From: Thioalkalivibrio nitratireducens
Lineage (GTDB): Bacteria > Pseudomonadota > Gammaproteobacteria > Ectothiorhodospirales > Ectothiorhodospiraceae
Reading direction: 5' to 3'
DNA length: 26,543 bases
Assembly: GCA_011390385.1 (NCBI GenBank)
Contig: JAABSN010000025.1
Location: 1 to 26,543 of the forward strand
Part shown: positions 3,277 through 11,109 of the stretch, piece by piece
Layout: the number at the start of each line of letters is the position of its first letter
How positions within the stretch are numbered: position 1 is the stretch's first letter
Program-made: the position numbers and the translations under genes
The notes under the pieces: generated by a model
What the model was told of the DNA's origin: nothing
The model's database searches: none
What the model saw: only the letters and a program-made list of their open reading frames with translations

Positions 3277-3365
3277 GGAAATTTTCACGTTAGAATACGG
3301 ATCGCCTGGGCTGTGAAGGTACGATACAAATCGAATCCTTCCCGACCCTCGCGCCTGGAGGCTTG

Positions 3366-4031
3366 ATGAGCGCACAGCAGAATGACCGGAAACAGCACGC
3401 AGTCGCGGGGCTGATCCTTGCCGGAGGCCGCGCCCGCAGAATGGGCGGCGAGGACAAGGGCCTGATCGCACTTGCCGGGCGGCCGATGGTCGAGCATGTG
3501 CTGGAGCGGTTCGAACCGCAGGTGGACGAAGTCCTGATCAACGCAAATCGCAATGCGGAACACTATGGGCGCTATGGACATCGGGTCGTTGCCGATGTGA
3601 TCGGCGACTACTCGGGCCCGCTCGCGGGCATGCTCACGGCGATGCTGGCAGTCGATCAGCCATGGTTGGCCGTGGTCCCCTGCGACAGCCCTTTGCTGCC
3701 AACGGATCTGGTGGAGCGACTTTTCCGCTCGGTACAGGCCGAGTCGGCCGATATCGCGGTCGCGCATGATGGCCATCGCCTGCAGCCGGTGATCGCCTTG
3801 CTCAATTGCTCGTTGCTCCCTGATCTTCGCGCGTTCCTTGATCATGGCGGCCGCAAGATCGACACGTGGTATGCGCAACACCGGATGGTCGCCACGGACC
3901 TGTCCGATCACCCGGAAGCCTTCGTCAACATCAACACGCCCGATGAGCGCGAGGCGCTCGAACAGAGGGTGATGACCGGACAGCCGCGCAGTGACCAGCA
4001 ATCCCGGTCCAGCCCGGAAAACGCTGACTGA
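3366..4031 (+). CDS. mobA: Molybdenum cofactor guanylyltransferase MobA
   Basis: This 221-residue cytoplasmic enzyme transfers GMP from GTP to Mo-molybdopterin, the step leading to the bis-MGD cofactor used by formate dehydrogenase. The N-terminal nucleotide-binding motif is clear (GLILAGGRARRMGGEDKGL). It is followed by the VVPCDSPLLP block with its metal-binding aspartate and the late VNINTPDE motif. The length fits the family. The ATG at 3366 is chosen with GGAGG at 3357-3361; a TTG one codon earlier is too close to that site. Its presence here fits the bis-MGD enzyme encoded downstream. The last ten residues, rich in Ser and Gln, run up to an intergenic repeat and are probably not conserved. 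Confidence 0.95.
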   Translation: MSAQQNDRKQHAVAGLILAGGRARRMGGEDKGLIALAGRPMVEHVLERFEPQVDEVLINANRNAEHYGRYGHRVVADVIGDYSGPLAGMLTAMLAVDQPWLAVVPCDSPLLPTDLVERLFRSVQAESADIAVAHDGHRLQPVIALLNCSLLPDLRAFLDHGGRKIDTWYAQHRMVATDLSDHPEAFVNINTPDEREALEQRVMTGQPRSDQQSRSSPENAD

Positions 4032-4149: not shown

Positions 4150-4824
4150 ATGACACGAATCCCGTTATGGCGAACCCTGATGGTCGGACTGACGCTCGTG
4201 GCACTGATCCCGAGCGCCACTCTGGCATCGTCGATCGCGGAGGATCTCGTTCAGGCCGTGCGCACGGGCGATACGGCCCGCGTGGAGTCGTTGCTGCGGC
4301 GCGGAGCCGATCCGGACGCGACCAGCCTGGAGGCGCCGTACGCAGGCAAGACGGTACTGATGTGGGCCGCGGACCTCGGCCACGAGGGTGCAGTCGAGAG
4401 CCTGCTCCGCCACGGCGCGCTGGTCGATACCAGACATCCGAAGGGCAGTACCGCGCTGATGTATGCAGTCCTCCGTGACCAGCCGGACACCGTCGAACGC
4501 CTGCTGCGCGCGGGCGCCGACCCCAACATCCGCGTACGTCACGGGTGGACCCCGGTGCTGTTGGCCACCGTGAAGGGCCAGCGCGCCAATCTACGCGTTC
4601 TGGCGCGGTACGGTGCCGAATTCGGGGTACAGGATCTCTACGGTTGGACGCCGCTGATGCGCGCTTCGGAGCGCGACGATGCCGGACTGGTCAAGGTGCT
4701 GCTGGAACTCGGGAGCAACCCGGACCAGCGCGAGAACACCGGCCAGACGGCCCTGGACATCGCCGAGGCACTGGGGCATCACGAGGTGGTCCGGCTATTG
4801 AGGGCCACCGGCCCGAACCGTTGA
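4150..4824 (+). CDS. Exported ankyrin-repeat protein
   Basis: This 224-residue protein starts with a Sec-type signal peptide: TRIPLWR, a hydrophobic core LMVGLTLVALIPSATL, and likely cleavage after ALASS around residue 28. The rest is five to six ankyrin repeats (about 30-55, 66-98, 99-131, 132-164, 165-197, 198-220), each with the TALMYA / LLRAGADPN pattern. Ankyrin repeats bind other proteins, so a periplasmic scaffold or inhibitor role is plausible. The ATG at 4150 is preferred because it opens the signal peptide and has AGAGG about 9 nt upstream; a GTG at 4084 would add a tail encoded by the repeat. It converges on the Rieske-like gene, 37 nt away. The partner is unknown. Confidence 0.9.
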   Translation: MTRIPLWRTLMVGLTLVALIPSATLASSIAEDLVQAVRTGDTARVESLLRRGADPDATSLEAPYAGKTVLMWAADLGHEGAVESLLRHGALVDTRHPKGSTALMYAVLRDQPDTVERLLRAGADPNIRVRHGWTPVLLATVKGQRANLRVLARYGAEFGVQDLYGWTPLMRASERDDAGLVKVLLELGSNPDQRENTGQTALDIAEALGHHEVVRLLRATGPNR

Positions 4825-4861: not shown

Positions 4862-5584
4862 CTACGTCTCCAGGGAGACACCGCAATGAACGACCGAGCG
4901 GGTGAAGCTGGCCAGAGTCTGGACATGCGCGACGCCTTCGACCTGGCTGTCGGGGGCCTGATTCGGGTATTCGAGCATCAGTCGGTGCCCGAATTCCCGG
5001 AAGAACCGATCGAACATCTCGCCACCCAGCGTCCCCGTCGCAAACAACGCATCTTCGCCTGCATCGTATTCGAGGATGATCGCCGCCAGTGGCTGGTCGG
5101 CGGGCCCGGTCAATACGCGGCATCCGCGCCGCGGATCGTAGGCGCTACCCTCCGCGCAGCAGGCGATCATTCCCGAGTGCGCTCCCCCCTTCGTCAACTC
5201 CGGCCGGTAGTCGATGTAACTGATCACCGGTGAGGGATGCGCCATCTTGTGGGCACAGATCGCTGAATAGGCAACGACGCTGCGCTCCGGACCCACACCC
5301 CCCTGCCATCGGTACTCCCGCCCGTCGTGCGTCCGCAGCGTCGCCGGGTCCGCAGGCCGGTCCAGCCGGATGAGGAAACACTGCGTGGCGGCCATCGGGT
5401 AATGAAACAGGTAGGTTTCACCGATCTGGAGGTCATCGAGATGCAACGACCCACCACGATCGTTGACAAGCCGTACCCGGCCGTACGAGCGCTCCGCGAC
5501 GGTATCGGACGGATGCAGCAGACCGGGAACTGCGGCGGCGCTGGCGCCGCCTGCACAAAGGCGGAAGAAGTGGCGGCGGCGCAC
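4862..5584 (-). CDS. Tat-exported Rieske-like [2Fe-2S] protein with a non-standard second ligand box
   Basis: This encodes 240 residues. I start it at the GTG at 5584, one base after the DUF6494 stop, because this gives a proper twin-arginine signal (MRRRHFFRLCAGGASAAAVP); an ATG at 5629 would overlap DUF6494 by 44 nt and bury that signal. The first Rieske box is present as Cys110-Ala-His112. The second box, normally C-P-C-H-G-S, reads Cys142-Cys143-Ala-Glu145-Gly-Ser: the ligand histidine is glutamate and there are two adjacent cysteines. The Glu145 codon is GAG. The following SAYDP and the late GPADQPLAAI strand resemble ordinary Rieske folds. It is the second gene after DUF6494 and is probably translationally coupled. 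It is a predicted periplasmic electron carrier or a structural relict; the redox partner is unknown. Confidence 0.85.
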   Translation of the reverse strand: MRRRHFFRLCAGGASAAAVPGLLHPSDTVAERSYGRVRLVNDRGGSLHLDDLQIGETYLFHYPMAATQCFLIRLDRPADPATLRTHDGREYRWQGGVGPERSVVAYSAICAHKMAHPSPVISYIDYRPELTKGGAHSGMIACCAEGSAYDPRRGCRVLTGPADQPLAAIILEYDAGEDALFATGTLGGEMFDRFFREFGHRLMLEYPNQAPDSQVEGVAHVQTLASFTRSVVHCGVSLET

Positions 5585-5585
5585 G

Positions 5586-5792
5586 CTATTCGAGGGAAAT
5601 CTCGCCGTCGATGACGACGGGCCCGTCAAGGGGTCCGAACTCGAGCGTGACCTTGACCGGAATGGATTCGTTGCCCTGCAAGCTGCCGTCCTCCAGAGAC
5701 TGCCGGACGGCCATCTCGATCTCGCGCTGGCAGTTGATACCGACGCGCTTCAGGAAGCTGCGCAGACTCAGGTTCAGGGTTTCCTCGTTCAT
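5586..5792 (-). CDS. DUF6494 family small protein
   Basis: This 68-residue protein is soluble and acidic. The pattern MNEETLNLSLRSFLKRVG, then NCQREIEMAVRQSLEDG, then a beta-rich end (KVTLEFGPLDGPVVIDGEI) fits my recollection of DUF6494, a family without known function. The ATG at 5792 is chosen with GGAGAG about 8 nt upstream, which fits the family start; upstream in-frame ATGs would add a tail of unrelated sequence. It is the first gene of a two-gene unit with the Rieske-like protein, whose start lies one base after its stop. The tight coupling suggests the two act in the same process. Confidence 0.8.
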   Translation of the reverse strand: MNEETLNLSLRSFLKRVGINCQREIEMAVRQSLEDGSLQGNESIPVKVTLEFGPLDGPVVIDGEISLE

Positions 5793-5865
5793 CGAATGCT
5801 CTCCATGGTTACCGACTGTTGATGTGGTGACGGGTTCGGTACTGAGCGTGACACAAACCATACCC

Positions 5866-5895
5866 GTCATGAAACCCGACCATCAGGTCATGAAA
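5866..5895 (-). promoter_or_regulatory. Direct repeat GTCATGAAA, possible operator for DUF6494-Rieske
   Basis: GTCATGAAA occurs at 5866-5874 and 5887-5895, 21 bp apart (two helical turns), about 75-105 nt upstream of the DUF6494 start. The exact repeat and the spacing are typical of an activator site. I could not place convincing -35 and -10 elements. Confidence 0.35.
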
Positions 5896-6152: not shown

Positions 6153-7241
6153 TCAGGACGATGCTGCCGGGCGCGGCTCCTCAGCGGGTTTCGGCGGTGG
6201 TGCCGAATCCGCGGCGGGCTGAGGCTTCACGCCCTTGTCTTCCAGATCCTTCATCCAGAGGTCGTGATGCTGGCGTGCCCAGTTCACGTCGACCCGACCG
6301 CCAACCATCCCCTCCAGCGAACCCTTCATCGCCACGATCGCCAGGTAAATGTGGCCGAATATGAAGGAAATCACGAGGATCGCCGTCGCCGCATGAATGA
6401 GCAGGGAAATCTGCATTGCCTCGCGCGACAGGCCGAACACCGGGAAAACCAGAACCAGGCCGGTGATCATCATCGCGATGCCGACGGTCGCGAGGAACCA
6501 GAACAGGAGCTTCTCCCCGCCGTTCACGAAGCCCGCATGGGGGTGTGCACCTTTCAGGAATCCACCGCCGGAAAGGAACCACTTCAGATCGTGACCTTTC
6601 GGCACGTTGACGCGGATCCACTTCAGGACCATCAGGACCAGACCGATCGCGAACAGCGCCCCGAGGTAGTTATGCACGTAGATGGCACCCTGCGCATACG
6701 TTGCGAAGGCTTCCGCCCCCATCACCGGCATCAGCACCAGGCGTCCATACAAGAGGCTCAGACCCGTGATTGCGAGGGCGATGAACAGGATCGCCGTGTA
6801 CCAGTGCAATACCCGGTCGAACAGCGTCCAGCGCTCGACCGTCATCCCGGAGCGTCCACCGTCGATCTGAACCCGCCCTCGAACGAGAAAGAGCGCCGCC
6901 AGGACCAATAGCACGACGGCCATGATCCAGCCTCCGTATATCGCCAGCGGCCCGTTGCGCAGTTGCCGGAAATTCTGGCCACTATCGGTGATGAGCACAT
7001 TGGCCGCCGGAGCCGTGACCGACGACACACCCTCGGTACCCTCGCGCACGCTGCGCCAGTATTCGGACAGGGGATTCACCGATCCCTGTTGTGCCTGCGC
7101 CACCGAGTCGCCAACGAAAAGCTGTCCGGTCCACGGCAGCGCCACGATCAGAAACACGGCACCCAGAAGTGCGAGGAGGATCAGCCTGCCGCGGCGGTGT
7201 CCTTTTTCGCTGGCCTGGGCCGTGTTGAGTGAAGATTTCAT
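6153..7241 (-). CDS. fdhC: Formate dehydrogenase gamma subunit, cytochrome b
   Basis: This 362-residue inner-membrane subunit takes electrons from FdhB and passes them to the quinone pool. There is a first hydrophobic segment at about 19-38 (signal anchor) and a periplasmic stretch to about 100. Further helices follow at about 103-121, 147-166, 187-207, 245-268 and 280-305. Candidate haem ligands are His146 (RVLHWYTA), His190 (YVHNYLG), His283 (LLIHAA) and His297 (FGHIYLA), the pattern of the FdnI/FdoI family. The extra N-terminal domain is typical of the longer FDH3-type gamma subunits. The C-terminus is a Pro/Ala-rich tail without obvious role. GGAGG lies before the ATG. It is the last gene of the operon, 20 nt after the lipoprotein gene. 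Confidence 0.93.
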   Translation of the reverse strand: MKSSLNTAQASEKGHRRGRLILLALLGAVFLIVALPWTGQLFVGDSVAQAQQGSVNPLSEYWRSVREGTEGVSSVTAPAANVLITDSGQNFRQLRNGPLAIYGGWIMAVVLLVLAALFLVRGRVQIDGGRSGMTVERWTLFDRVLHWYTAILFIALAITGLSLLYGRLVLMPVMGAEAFATYAQGAIYVHNYLGALFAIGLVLMVLKWIRVNVPKGHDLKWFLSGGGFLKGAHPHAGFVNGGEKLLFWFLATVGIAMMITGLVLVFPVFGLSREAMQISLLIHAATAILVISFIFGHIYLAIVAMKGSLEGMVGGRVDVNWARQHHDLWMKDLEDKGVKPQPAADSAPPPKPAEEPRPAASS

Positions 7242-7261: not shown

Positions 7262-7465
7262 TCAGCGGTCGGTTTGCACCATCAGGAACCGCTCGCGCAG
7301 ACGTTCCTGGTGTGCCGGGTCGGCGGACAATTCCACAAGCGGATCTGCCTTGCCTTTGTAAACCCCGGCGTCATGCATCGTGACATCGCGGCTCTCGTAA
7401 CAACCGGTGAGCAGAAACAGCGCGGCCACGAGTGACATCGTCGCTAACAGGAATCGGGTTTTCAC
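7262..7465 (-). CDS. Small lipoprotein of the formate dehydrogenase operon
   Basis: This encodes 67 residues. A lipoprotein signal ends in the lipobox LLTGC with the lipidated Cys22. The 45-residue mature part includes the run HDAGVYKGKADPLVELS. Similar short lipoproteins lie between the beta and gamma subunit genes in other FDH3 operons, to my recollection. A membrane-tethered accessory role in assembly is plausible but unproven. The start has AGGAGAG upstream. The 105-nt gap before it holds a strong hairpin. Confidence 0.85.
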   Translation of the reverse strand: MKTRFLLATMSLVAALFLLTGCYESRDVTMHDAGVYKGKADPLVELSADPAHQERLRERFLMVQTDR

Positions 7466-7570: not shown

Positions 7571-8167
7571 TCAGATACCCGCGCCGTAGGCCTTGTCCCA
7601 ACCCCAGGTTTCCGGACGGCCGGACCGACGCATCACGCGCTTGCGATAGATATCCGCCAGAACGTCGCCGTCACCCGCCAGCAGGGCCTTGGTCGCACAC
7701 ATCTCCGCACACGCGGGAAGTTTGCCCTCGGCGATACGGTTGGCACCGTATTTCTCGAATTCGGCCTGCGAACCCGCCTCCTCCGGTCCACCGGCACAGA
7801 AGGTGCATTTGTCCATCTTCCCGCGCACGGCAAAGGCCTGCTTCTGCGGCGACGGATACTGCGGCGCCCCGAACGGGCAGGCGTAGAAACAGTAACCGCA
7901 ACCGATGCACAGATCCTTGTCGTGCAGCACCAGTCCATCGGCAGTGTAGTAGAAGCAGTCGACCGGACAGACGGCCGCGCAAGGTGCATCCGTGCAATGC
8001 ATGCATGCCACCGAAATCGATTTCTCGCCCGGAACGCCGTCGTTCAGCGTAACCACTCGCCGCCGATTGACCCCCCAGGGAACTTCGTTCGCATTCTTGC
8101 AGGCGGTTACGCACCCGTTGCACTCGATACAGCGCTCGGCATCACAAAGAAACTTCATCTTGGCCAT
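7571..8167 (-). CDS. fdhB: Formate dehydrogenase beta subunit, four [4Fe-4S] clusters
   Basis: This 198-residue ferredoxin-like subunit carries electrons from FdhA to FdhC. Four cysteine groups are visible: C13/16/19/23 (CIECNGCVTAC), C55/58/63/67 (CMHCTDAPCAAVC), C87/90/93/97 (CIGCGYCFYAC) and C121/C124 with C153/C157 (CTFC ... CAEMC), the FdnH/HybA layout. It lacks the C-terminal membrane anchor of E. coli FdnH, as is usual for FDH3-type beta subunits. It has no signal peptide and is expected to be exported with FdhA by the Tat system. AGGAGAG lies before the ATG. It follows fdhA by 44 nt. Confidence 0.95.
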   Translation of the reverse strand: MAKMKFLCDAERCIECNGCVTACKNANEVPWGVNRRRVVTLNDGVPGEKSISVACMHCTDAPCAAVCPVDCFYYTADGLVLHDKDLCIGCGYCFYACPFGAPQYPSPQKQAFAVRGKMDKCTFCAGGPEEAGSQAEFEKYGANRIAEGKLPACAEMCATKALLAGDGDVLADIYRKRVMRRSGRPETWGWDKAYGAGI

Positions 8168-8211: not shown

Positions 8212-11109
8212 TCAGGCGGGCTGGATACGGCACAGGGAACACTTCGTCTCCTGCATCGCGGTCACCGAGTCATAGCCATAGGTGAACGCAGTATTGCAGG
8301 CCTCGCCAAGCACGTAGGGGTCGCTGCCTTCCGGATAGTTGGCACGCAGATCCTTGCCCTGGAAGTGGCCACCGAAGTGGAACGGCGTGAACACCACCCC
8401 CGGTTCCACGCGCTGCGTGACTAGCGCCTTGATCCGGATACGGCCGCCCTCCGGCCCTTCCAGCCAGATTTCCTGGCCGTCGCGGATGCCCGCATTGTTC
8501 GCGTCCACCGGATTGACTTCCGCGAACATCTCCTGCTTCAGTTCCGCGAGCCATGGGTTGGAGCGCGTTTCATCGCCGCCACCCTCGTATTCCACCAGAC
8601 GTCCACTGGTATGGATCAGCGGATAGTCCTGGCTGTAGTCCTTCGCCTGCACCGAGGCGTAGCGCGTCGGCAGCCGGAAGAAGCCCCGGCGGTCCGCGTA
8701 GGTCGGATACTTCTCCACCAGATCGTAGCGAGTGGTATAGAGCGGCTCGCGATGGATCGGCACCGGGTCCGGGAAGTTCCAGGCCACGCAGCGGGCCTTG
8801 GCGTTGCCGAAGGGCGCACAGCCGTGCTCGATCGCCACGCGGATGATCCCGCCGGAGCGGTCGAGGTGCCAGAACTTGCCTTCTGCCAGCACCTTCTCCT
8901 CATCGGTCAGATCATCCCACCAGCCCAGCTGCTTCAGCAGATCGGCGCTGAAACGGGGATGTCCGTCCGCGATTTCCGAATCCACCGGATACGAGCCTTC
9001 GGCCAGCAGGTTGTCTCCGTCACGTTCGGTGCCGAAGTTCTCGCGGAAATTCAGACCGCCCTTGGCCACCGGAAGACTGGTGTCGTAGAGATTGGCGGTA
9101 CCCGGATGCTTGAATTCCGGCGTACCCCAGCAGGGCCACGGCAGACCGTAGAATTCATCGTGAACCGGACCACCCTCCGCCAGCAGGGAGGTGGTGTTGA
9201 AGGTGTGCCAGTTCTGCTGGTGCTCCTTCAGGCGTTCCGGGCTCTGACCACTGTACCCGATGGTCCACATGCCCTTGTTGTATTCGCGGACGATATCCTC
9301 GATCAGCGGCTCCTCGCCGTTCACCTGAATATGTTTGGTCAGGTCGTCGGCGAAACCTAATTTCTTCGCGAACTTGTACATGATCACGTGATCGGGACGC
9401 GAGTCGAACAGCGGTTCGATCACCTTGTCACGCCACTGGATGGATCGGTTCGAGGCCGTGACCGAGCCGTAGGTCTCGAACTGTGTCGTCGCAGGCAGCA
9501 GATAGGTATTGTTCTTCCGCTCGTGCATGACCGCCGAAACGGTCGGGAACGGATCAACAACCACCAACAGGTCGAGCTTCTCGAACGCCTTCTTCATTTC
9601 CGGGCCGCGCACCTGGGAATTGGGCGCGTGCCCCCAGAAGACCATCGCCTTCAGGTTGTCCTGCTGGACGATCTGGTCTCTGTCCTCGAGCACACCGTCG
9701 ATCCACCGCGAGACCGGGATACCCGAGGTGTTCATCGGCTTGGCACCGGAACCACCGCGCTCCTCGTACGTTTCCTGCCCGAAACGCGCGGCCAGCTGGT
9801 CGTAGTCGAGATCCCAGACCGCCGCCCAGTGCTTCCAGGCCCCTTCGGACAGGCCGTAGTAACCGGGCAGGTTATCGGAGAGCACACCGAAGTCGGTGGC
9901 GCCCTGCACGTTGTCATGACCGCGAAAGATATTGGTCCCGCCGCCGGCCTTGCCCATGTTGCCCAGCGCCAGCTGGAAGTGGCAGTAGGCCCGGGTGAAG
10001 TTGTTGCCGACAGTGTGCTGGGTCCCGCCCATGCACCAGACGAAGGTGCCGGGCCGGTTATCGGCCATCAGCTTGGCCGCGTTGAAGCAGGTGTCGCGAT
10101 CCACACCCGAGACGCGCTCCACCTCGTCCGGTGTCCAGCGCTTGACCTCCTCGAGGACCTGATCCATGCCCCAGACGCGTTGTGCCAGGAACTCCTTGTC
10201 TTCCCAGCCATTCTCGAAGATGTGCCACATCATGCCGTAGACCACGGCGATGTCCGAACCCGGACGCAGGCGCATGTACTGGTCCGCATGCGCGGCGGTG
10301 CGGGTGAAACGCGGGTCGATGACAAGCAGTTTGGCGCCCTGCTCCTTGGCGCGCAGCACGAACTGCATGGACACCGGATGCGCCTCGGCCGGATTGCCGC
10401 CGATGATCAGGATGGCCTTGCTGTTCAGCATGTCGTTGTAGGAGTTGGTCATCGCTCCGTAGCCCCAGGTATTGGCTACGCCGGCAACCGTCGTCGAATG
10501 ACAGATCCGCGCCTGGTGGTCGACGTTGTTGGAACCCCAGAGCGCCGCGAACTTGCGCAGCAGGTACGCCTGCTCGTTGCTGTGCTTGGCCGATCCGAGC
10601 CAGTAGACGGAGTCAGGACCCGACGCCTCGCGGATCTCCATCATCTTGTCGCCGATCTCGTCGATCGCCTCGTCCCAGGAGATGCGCTTCCACTTGCCGT
10701 CCACCATTTTCATCGGGTACTTCAGGCGCCGTTCGCCATGTCCGTGCTCGCGCACCGCCGCGCCCTTGGCGCAGTGGGCACCGAGATTGAACGGGTGGTC
10801 GAACGCCGGTTCCTGCCCGACCCAGACACCGTCGCGCACCTTGGCGTAGATCCCGCATCCCACGGAACAATGGCCGCAGATCGTGCGCACGGTTTTCACA
10901 TCACCACCGACCGCGACGGTACTTGCAGCCTCCGATTTCCGGACCAGCCCCGGCGCCATCTGGCTTGCCAGGGTCACGCCGCCAACCGTCAGGCCGGCGT
11001 TACGCAAAAAGGCACGGCGATTCAGGGAGACGCCCTTGCCGTCGGCACCGCGACCCGCGCCAGGCGCCTCGACGTTGGGCTCGGTATGGGATTTTCTCAT
11101 CAGTTTCAT
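8212..11109 (-). CDS. fdhA: Formate dehydrogenase catalytic subunit, cysteine type
   Basis: This 965-residue molybdenum (or tungsten) bis-MGD oxidoreductase oxidises formate to CO2 in the periplasm. A Tat signal is present around Arg31-Arg32 (NRRAFLRNAG). The N-terminal [4Fe-4S] cluster is C78, C81, C85, C113. The metal ligand is Cys203 (ARICHSTTVAG), encoded by TGT, where E. coli FdnG/FdhF has selenocysteine; the following histidine is the conserved active-site His. The C-terminal molybdopterin-dinucleotide-binding domain (VEPGVVFTPFHFGGH) is complete. The length fits FDH3-type alpha subunits. AGGAG lies 9 nt before the ATG; a second ATG three codons in is possible. It lies between the Tat-target small protein and fdhB. 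Confidence 0.97.
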   Translation of the reverse strand: MKLMRKSHTEPNVEAPGAGRGADGKGVSLNRRAFLRNAGLTVGGVTLASQMAPGLVRKSEAASTVAVGGDVKTVRTICGHCSVGCGIYAKVRDGVWVGQEPAFDHPFNLGAHCAKGAAVREHGHGERRLKYPMKMVDGKWKRISWDEAIDEIGDKMMEIREASGPDSVYWLGSAKHSNEQAYLLRKFAALWGSNNVDHQARICHSTTVAGVANTWGYGAMTNSYNDMLNSKAILIIGGNPAEAHPVSMQFVLRAKEQGAKLLVIDPRFTRTAAHADQYMRLRPGSDIAVVYGMMWHIFENGWEDKEFLAQRVWGMDQVLEEVKRWTPDEVERVSGVDRDTCFNAAKLMADNRPGTFVWCMGGTQHTVGNNFTRAYCHFQLALGNMGKAGGGTNIFRGHDNVQGATDFGVLSDNLPGYYGLSEGAWKHWAAVWDLDYDQLAARFGQETYEERGGSGAKPMNTSGIPVSRWIDGVLEDRDQIVQQDNLKAMVFWGHAPNSQVRGPEMKKAFEKLDLLVVVDPFPTVSAVMHERKNNTYLLPATTQFETYGSVTASNRSIQWRDKVIEPLFDSRPDHVIMYKFAKKLGFADDLTKHIQVNGEEPLIEDIVREYNKGMWTIGYSGQSPERLKEHQQNWHTFNTTSLLAEGGPVHDEFYGLPWPCWGTPEFKHPGTANLYDTSLPVAKGGLNFRENFGTERDGDNLLAEGSYPVDSEIADGHPRFSADLLKQLGWWDDLTDEEKVLAEGKFWHLDRSGGIIRVAIEHGCAPFGNAKARCVAWNFPDPVPIHREPLYTTRYDLVEKYPTYADRRGFFRLPTRYASVQAKDYSQDYPLIHTSGRLVEYEGGGDETRSNPWLAELKQEMFAEVNPVDANNAGIRDGQEIWLEGPEGGRIRIKALVTQRVEPGVVFTPFHFGGHFQGKDLRANYPEGSDPYVLGEACNTAFTYGYDSVTAMQETKCSLCRIQPA

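Follow-up and report, generated by a model that had tools for sequence, protein, structure and literature searches.

Two ordinary two-Cys/two-His Rieske proteins frame the comparison made here: AioB, the Rieske subunit of arsenite oxidase (TIGR02694; PDB 1g8j and 8cff), which carries the ligand boxes C-x-H and C-x-x-H, and SoxF of Sulfolobus (PDB 1jm1), which reads CPCH. A different [2Fe-2S] protein, the Rrf2-family regulator RsrR, is described in PMC11138216 and PMC12499515 as a DNA-binding dimer whose native cluster has two Cys, a His and a Glu as ligands, shared between the subunits; one iron has Cys and Glu and the other Cys and His (PMC12499515). In Rieske centres, His ligands raise the reduction potential (-150 to +400 mV) and couple protons, according to PMC11138216. 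Here we describe a Rieske-like gene in 26,543 nucleotides of Thioalkalivibrio nitratireducens DNA (contig JAABSN010000025.1 of assembly GCA_011390385.1, hereafter the window), whose family reads CC-x-E where AioB reads C-x-x-H. This exported bacterial Rieske-type family is apparently uncharacterised, and we found no description of it in the open-access PMC literature, judged by titles and abstract openings. We hold it an evenly balanced proposition that the product is an exported Rieske-fold electron-transfer protein of CCHH descent, in which the box II His gave way to a carboxylate and a [2Fe-2S] cluster is held by two Cys, one His and that carboxylate.

The altered box can be read directly from the codons (Table 1). 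The initial annotation had reported an intact Cys-x-His box I and a box II of C-C-A-E-G-S, with Glu for His and an adjacent Cys pair, and both readings hold. Alignment to AioB and SoxF places C125, H127 and C157 on ligand positions, C158 over Pro, A159 over the disulfide Cys and E160 over the second ligand His (we number from TTG 5629; the 110 and 112 of the initial annotation count from GTG 5584). Its view that selection rather than a frameshift or decay explains the box also stands: the minus-strand reading frame is open throughout from 5629 to 4862, and comparison with the homologue in a Thioalkalivibrio metagenome-assembled genome (MAG; locus L001, 85% identity, same gene order) gives a ratio of nonsynonymous to synonymous substitution rates (dN/dS) of 0.079, with dS 1.15 over 240 codons. 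The gene is under purifying selection; this ratio and the conservation of the motif across the family rule out a frameshift or decay, and the many relatives sharing the motif rule out a single-genome oddity. The family start aligns with GTG 5584, where Met stands in 95 of 121 aligned members and in the L001 homologue. The retention of fold and Tat (twin-arginine translocation) signal was likewise borne out, with a Rieske fold predicted for the window protein and the TAT_signal_seq model matching 42 of 65 family members at E ≤ 0.1. One further Cys of the window protein, C25, falls inside the signal.

Conservation of the box extends across a large family. A protein search returned 1354 relatives at E ≤ 1e-5, and in an alignment of the window protein with the best 120 of these (n = 121), C125, H127, C157 and C158 are each present in 121/121, and position 160 is Glu in 111 and Asp in 10. 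A scan of GTDB species contigs confirmed at least 456 relatives (unrelated to the set of 456 below); the best 80 of these, all Pseudomonadota by their record titles, have Glu in 75 and Asp in 5, a count biased toward Glu because, of the two patterns searched, one was CC[SA]ExSxYDP. Additional His-type members were obtained with the L091 protein and then the L129 protein (CC-L-H) as query, the best 120 being used from each. A combined set (n = 456) then joined the window protein, the matches of three database searches and the genome loci, with overlaps between sources kept and loci at ≤100 bits placed in the outgroup. In this set, position 160 is Glu in 288, Asp in 35, His in 133 and never another residue; the proportions depend on the queries chosen, and the counts are of sequences rather than independent events. 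C157 and C158 are present in all 456, C125 in 455 (one gap, in a fragment) and H127 in 454 (one gap, one Pro), so that both box I residues are found in 454/456. All 323 Glu/Asp members read CC-x-E/D with C125, H127 and C157 intact, at a mean identity of 54% over sampled pairs. On these alignments the Glu/Asp proteins form a large and distinct branch of the family, as the initial annotation had suspected, and no close homologue with the normal C-x-C-H box appeared, the nearest His-bearing relatives reading CC-x-H. Among these His-type members, 131 of 133 hold all four canonical ligands. One of them (P0190) has Pro at the H127 position with the remaining motif residues kept, which is either a sequencing error or a natural loss of a ligand.

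A less biased sample came from a profile search of 398 Pseudomonadota genomes with a model built from Glu/Asp members. Seventeen genomes match at E ≤ 1e-5: four strongly (E ≤ 6.5e-76; two Glu, one Asp and one C-C-A-H, L091) and 13 weakly (2.3e-12 to 6.8e-7), with His at the second-ligand position in all 13, in CPCH, CPGH, CMCH or CVCH. Within the class of a gammaproteobacterial MAG (G007; 369 genomes), 19 match at E ≤ 1e-10, and 18 of these are strong (E ≤ 8.9e-39), with 14 Glu, one Asp and three His at position 160. The class of genome G110 held no His-type locus beyond G110 itself (1/385 genomes), and the orders of G706, G680 and G650 (1/5, 1/3 and 1/3) held none beyond those centre genomes. 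In a plasmid collection, 20 records match, of which 17 are annotated as arsenate reductase (azurin) small subunit, one as a Rieske-domain protein and two not at all; 0/20 span 80% of the query.

On the best AioB-rooted trees, the Glu/Asp forms appear to descend from His forms. With column 160 masked, a 55-row IQ-TREE analysis (six long-branch family rows left out; one row failed the coverage filter) places all Glu/Asp rows in one clade (support 100/99) above a grade of His rows, with at least three interchanges between Glu and Asp. For the Rieske domain alone, a 70-row set that takes in the L129-type His clade and an outgroup of four rows likewise yields a best tree with Glu/Asp as a single clade, and its bootstrap trees require one to three changes; a 350-row FastTree needs one change between His and Glu/Asp. 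We take His to be ancestral because all ten outgroup members (10/10) carry it at the second-ligand position. A single origin of Glu/Asp from His is our best estimate from these trees, though unproven.

The mechanism that we propose starts from an ancestor that would have been an ordinary two-Cys/two-His Rieske protein related to AioB and SoxF, in which the second, box II His was swapped for a carboxylate in one large branch. Most likely, a [2Fe-2S] cluster would be bound with its first iron on C125 and C157 and its second on H127 and the carboxylate of E160 (or Asp), whose conservation suggests that it binds cluster iron. A geometry in which the two Cys share an iron while His and carboxylate share the other would match neither RsrR nor an ordinary Rieske centre. 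Judged from its charge, an anionic ligand would bring the reduction potential down, and the centre would have a single titratable histidine instead of two. The product would probably serve as a periplasmic single-electron carrier of Beta- and Gammaproteobacteria, and its gene often has formate dehydrogenase or other molybdenum or tungsten (Mo/W) genes as neighbours. Should the cluster form, the family would provide natural Rieske centres with a carboxylate ligand; we found no report of such a coordination in the open-access literature. The His-type relatives would supply natural before-and-after pairs for the effect of one ligand on Rieske potential and proton coupling.

The surroundings of the site differ between the two types. 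Position 128, adjoining H127, is Lys or Arg in 296/323 Glu/Asp members versus 0/133 His members, position 161 shifts from mostly Gly or Ala to mostly Lys, Arg, Asn or His, and R142 is present in 317/323 Glu/Asp members. The basic residues at 128 and 142 may offset the charge of the carboxylate, and the pattern fits compensation for an added negative charge; a salt bridge would explain it just as well. The classical cluster-loop disulfide is also gone, C.H..C occurring in 0/456 family members versus 7/10 outgroup sequences and Cys at 159 in 0/456. This Cys pair is missing in other Rieske-type proteins too, such as dioxygenase ferredoxins, and three AioB-like proteins (L101, L095 and L098), reading C-P-G-H and C-P-H-K-G, likewise do without it. 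As a substitute, C158 may pair with C249 of the C-terminal helix, both residues being common to His-type and carboxylate-type members. C84 was considered as a ligand or essential disulfide partner and rejected, since it is absent in 78/456 (3 through a gap).

Several observations count against carboxylate ligation and its single origin. The window protein scores 14.4 bits against the Pfam Rieske model PF00355, under the gathering score of 20.3, and lacks the Cys-x2-His of a Rieske box II; the same model matches 22 of 65 family members at E ≤ 0.1. The sole outgroup row left in the 55-row tree after thinning is the AioB-like L123, on a branch of 5.5 changes per column, and the Glu/Asp clade of the 70-row tree is weakly supported (51/86), with 52% of bootstrap trees in agreement. 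Many columns separate the Glu/Asp and His groups as strongly as position 128 does, several of them in 214-219 of the C-terminal helix as much or more, so the shift at 128 is not specific evidence, and the partner of E160 could be K128 or R142 rather than iron. RsrR has one Cys per iron and is a precedent for a geometry other than the one proposed, with both Cys on one iron. The average g value by itself would not settle the ligand set, since a table in PMC12499515 lists 1.91 for Rieske CCHH and 1.93 for both RsrR CCHE and Apd1 CCHH.

Of the alternatives, a mononuclear Fe or Zn site on Cys2-His-carboxylate within the Rieske fold, catalytic or structural, survives best: the ligand set fits a mononuclear metal as well as a dinuclear one, but we think it unlikely, given that the nearest relatives of known structure carry [2Fe-2S] clusters and that the remaining three ligand positions are retained; no catalytic pocket turned up, and no search aimed at one was made. 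Ranking after it, and improbable in our view, is a cluster on three protein ligands, the fourth being water or a residue of a partner, with E160 held in the second shell by K128 or R142; the basic residues that accompany Glu/Asp would suit such an arrangement, but 27/323 members lack Lys or Arg at 128 and nevertheless keep the carboxylate. Loss of the cluster, with the fold retained as a scaffold for another role, would account for the disappearance of one canonical ligand and the classical disulfide; it is more doubtful still, because loss should free all four ligand positions, whereas C125, H127 and C157 are invariant in 323/323 Glu/Asp members at the sequence divergence given above. Least probable is a NEET-like three-Cys/one-His [2Fe-2S] cluster with C158 in place of the lost His: C158 is invariant and adjoins a ligand Cys, but it is no less constant among the 133 members with His at 160, 131 of which have all four canonical ligands, so it does not substitute for that His, its co-occurrence with the distant C249 (454/456) suggests a structural pair, and the Glu or Asp at 160 would be left unexplained. 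The initial annotation had left three outcomes standing, and of these the Glu-ligated cluster is now best supported and the three-Cys/one-His and cluster-free outcomes are disfavoured. The Cys pair did not come with the loss of His, being present in 133/133 His-type members.

The window protein is not a true arsenite oxidase subunit, a candidate ruled out by its TIGR02694 score (42.5 versus a cut-off of 95.65 bits) and its Fdh-alpha-type neighbour. Compared with AioB, it is without the disulfide pair and has a C-terminal extension bearing C249; its gene neighbours are a DUF6494 gene, an ankyrin gene and formate dehydrogenase genes rather than AioA, and the molybdopterin subunit scores 488.7 bits as Fdh-alpha versus 64.0 as arsenite_ox_L. 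The genome of Aquisalimonas lutea holds a true AioB (L085, 174.2 bits, over the cut-off) and a family member (L007) together. In their source annotation, some family members carry the name arsenite oxidase small subunit, which could yield false calls of arsenic metabolism. Nor does the protein belong to SoxL2, with which we compared it through the family model: soxL2 (TIGR03171) is the best NCBIfam match for the window protein and for the His-type L091, and the window protein reaches 92.7 bits versus a cut-off of 582.1. Among PDB entries, SoxF matches the window protein best by sequence.

Table 1. Coordinates of the Rieske-like gene, its motifs and neighbours in the window, and of His-type genes at other loci (locus-prefixed positions)
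Feature	Position	Strand	Remarks
MobA, molybdenum cofactor guanylyltransferase	3363..4031	plus	TIGR02665 above cut-off
Ankyrin-repeat protein	4150..4824	plus	signal-like N-terminus (by eye); convergent with Rieske gene
Rieske-like gene	4862..5584	minus	240 aa from GTG 5584; open frame reaches back to TTG 5629
C249, C-terminal Cys	4883..4885	minus	co-conserved with C158, 454/456
Box II, C157-C158-A159-E160	5161-5150	minus	codons TGC TGC GCG GAG
Box I, C125-A126-H127	5257-5249	minus	retained ligand positions; codon reading and alignment
Tat-type signal, RRRHFFRLC	5480..5584	minus	twin Arg R18-R19 in 121/121; end guessed
DUF6494 gene	5586..5870	minus	PF20104, 1.2e-22; Pfam match from internal Met, likely start 5792
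Formate dehydrogenase gamma (cytochrome b561 type)	6153..7241	minus	upstream, same strand as Rieske gene; TIGR01583 above cut-off
67-aa protein	7262-7465	minus	lipoprotein-like N-terminus (by eye); between two formate dehydrogenase subunit genes; no Pfam match
4Fe-4S protein, formate dehydrogenase beta subunit	7571..8167	minus	assigned by position and domains
Formate dehydrogenase alpha-like molybdopterin subunit	8212..11109	minus	TIGR01591 best match, 488.7 bits, under cut-off 666.25
His-type CC-x-H Rieske gene beside FccB-like gene	L126:7786-8688
His-type CC-x-H Rieske gene beside FccB-like gene	L127:6288-7184
His-type CC-x-H Rieske gene beside FccB-like gene	L128:7752-8687
His-type CC-x-H Rieske gene beside FccB-like gene	L129:3733-4392

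Gene neighbourhoods were compared by tblastn (bit score ≥60) around 80 and 16 Glu/Asp loci, four His-type loci and 20 control regions; the controls were drawn from three genomes holding a member, and the 16-locus set repeats at least two of the 80. Since many loci span less than 17 kb, each presence count is a minimum and an absence can in some cases mean no more than a contig end; all loci are related by descent, so the counts are not independent trials. The ankyrin gene recurs at 42/80 and 10/16 Glu/Asp loci, 0/4 His-type loci and 0/20 control regions, and FdhA at 23/80, 4/16, 0/4 and 1/20 in the same order. Seven Mo/W queries were used: FdhA, FdhB, FdhC and MobA from the window, and three proteins identified by Pfam, namely MoeA, a MoaD/ThiS-type protein and an aldehyde ferredoxin oxidoreductase. 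Any of the seven is found at 42/80, 9/16, 0/4 and 1/20, and the four window queries alone at 33/80, 9/16, 0/4 and 1/20. Ankyrin and/or Mo/W genes lie near 53/80 Glu/Asp loci and neither near 27/80 and 3/16; 16 of those 27 extend 5 kb or more to either side, and the others are partly contig ends. We therefore do not uphold a dedicated formate dehydrogenase subunit, with FdhA at 23/80 only and 27/80 loci without ankyrin or Mo/W genes; the formate dehydrogenase link is positional, not universal. Some Glu/Asp loci, L015 among them, show a second type of neighbourhood, near genes for the MoaD/ThiS-type protein and aldehyde ferredoxin oxidoreductase.

The His-type loci have a different neighbour. 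FccA is the cytochrome subunit of flavocytochrome c sulfide dehydrogenase, and an FccB-like (sulfide-dehydrogenase-like) flavoprotein gene accompanies the His-type Rieske gene in 4/4 loci, where by analogy a one-electron acceptor would be expected; the Rieske protein would stand in place of the c-type cytochrome. The same flavoprotein gene occurs in 0/20 controls and in none of the 96 Glu/Asp loci (0/80 and 0/16). The four loci are a small sample; they represent two or more positions in the His grade, where L115/L117 branch at the base and L091 falls in the P0122 group. The FCSD_central domain scores above cut-off in the three FccB-like proteins scanned, from L126 and L129; at L129 the flavoprotein gene ends 9 bases ahead of the Rieske gene, and at L091/L126 the Rieske gene is flanked by two FccB-like genes. 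A fuller history, in which CCHH became Cys2/His/carboxylate probably by one change, the flavoprotein partner was lost, Mo/W association came later, the potential was retuned downward and the C158-C249 disulfide was new, is one that we advance tentatively, as somewhat less probable than the ligation itself.

Within the window, the stop codon of the DUF6494 gene ends at 5586, one base before the Rieske GTG at 5584, and the two genes may be translationally coupled; DUF6494 lies near the Rieske gene in 1/80 loci, L001. In 42/80 loci, an ankyrin relative follows shortly downstream, encoded on the other strand, even though a shared transcript with the Rieske gene is impossible. Matches of the ankyrin protein to other NCBIfam families are far under cut-off, and we treat it as repeats only. 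Relatives of the 67-aa protein occur in 10 to 16 of 80 loci, varying with the cut-off. At another Glu/Asp locus (L074:9507-10073, minus strand), a 188-aa protein without a Pfam match has relatives in 9/80 and 5/16 loci.
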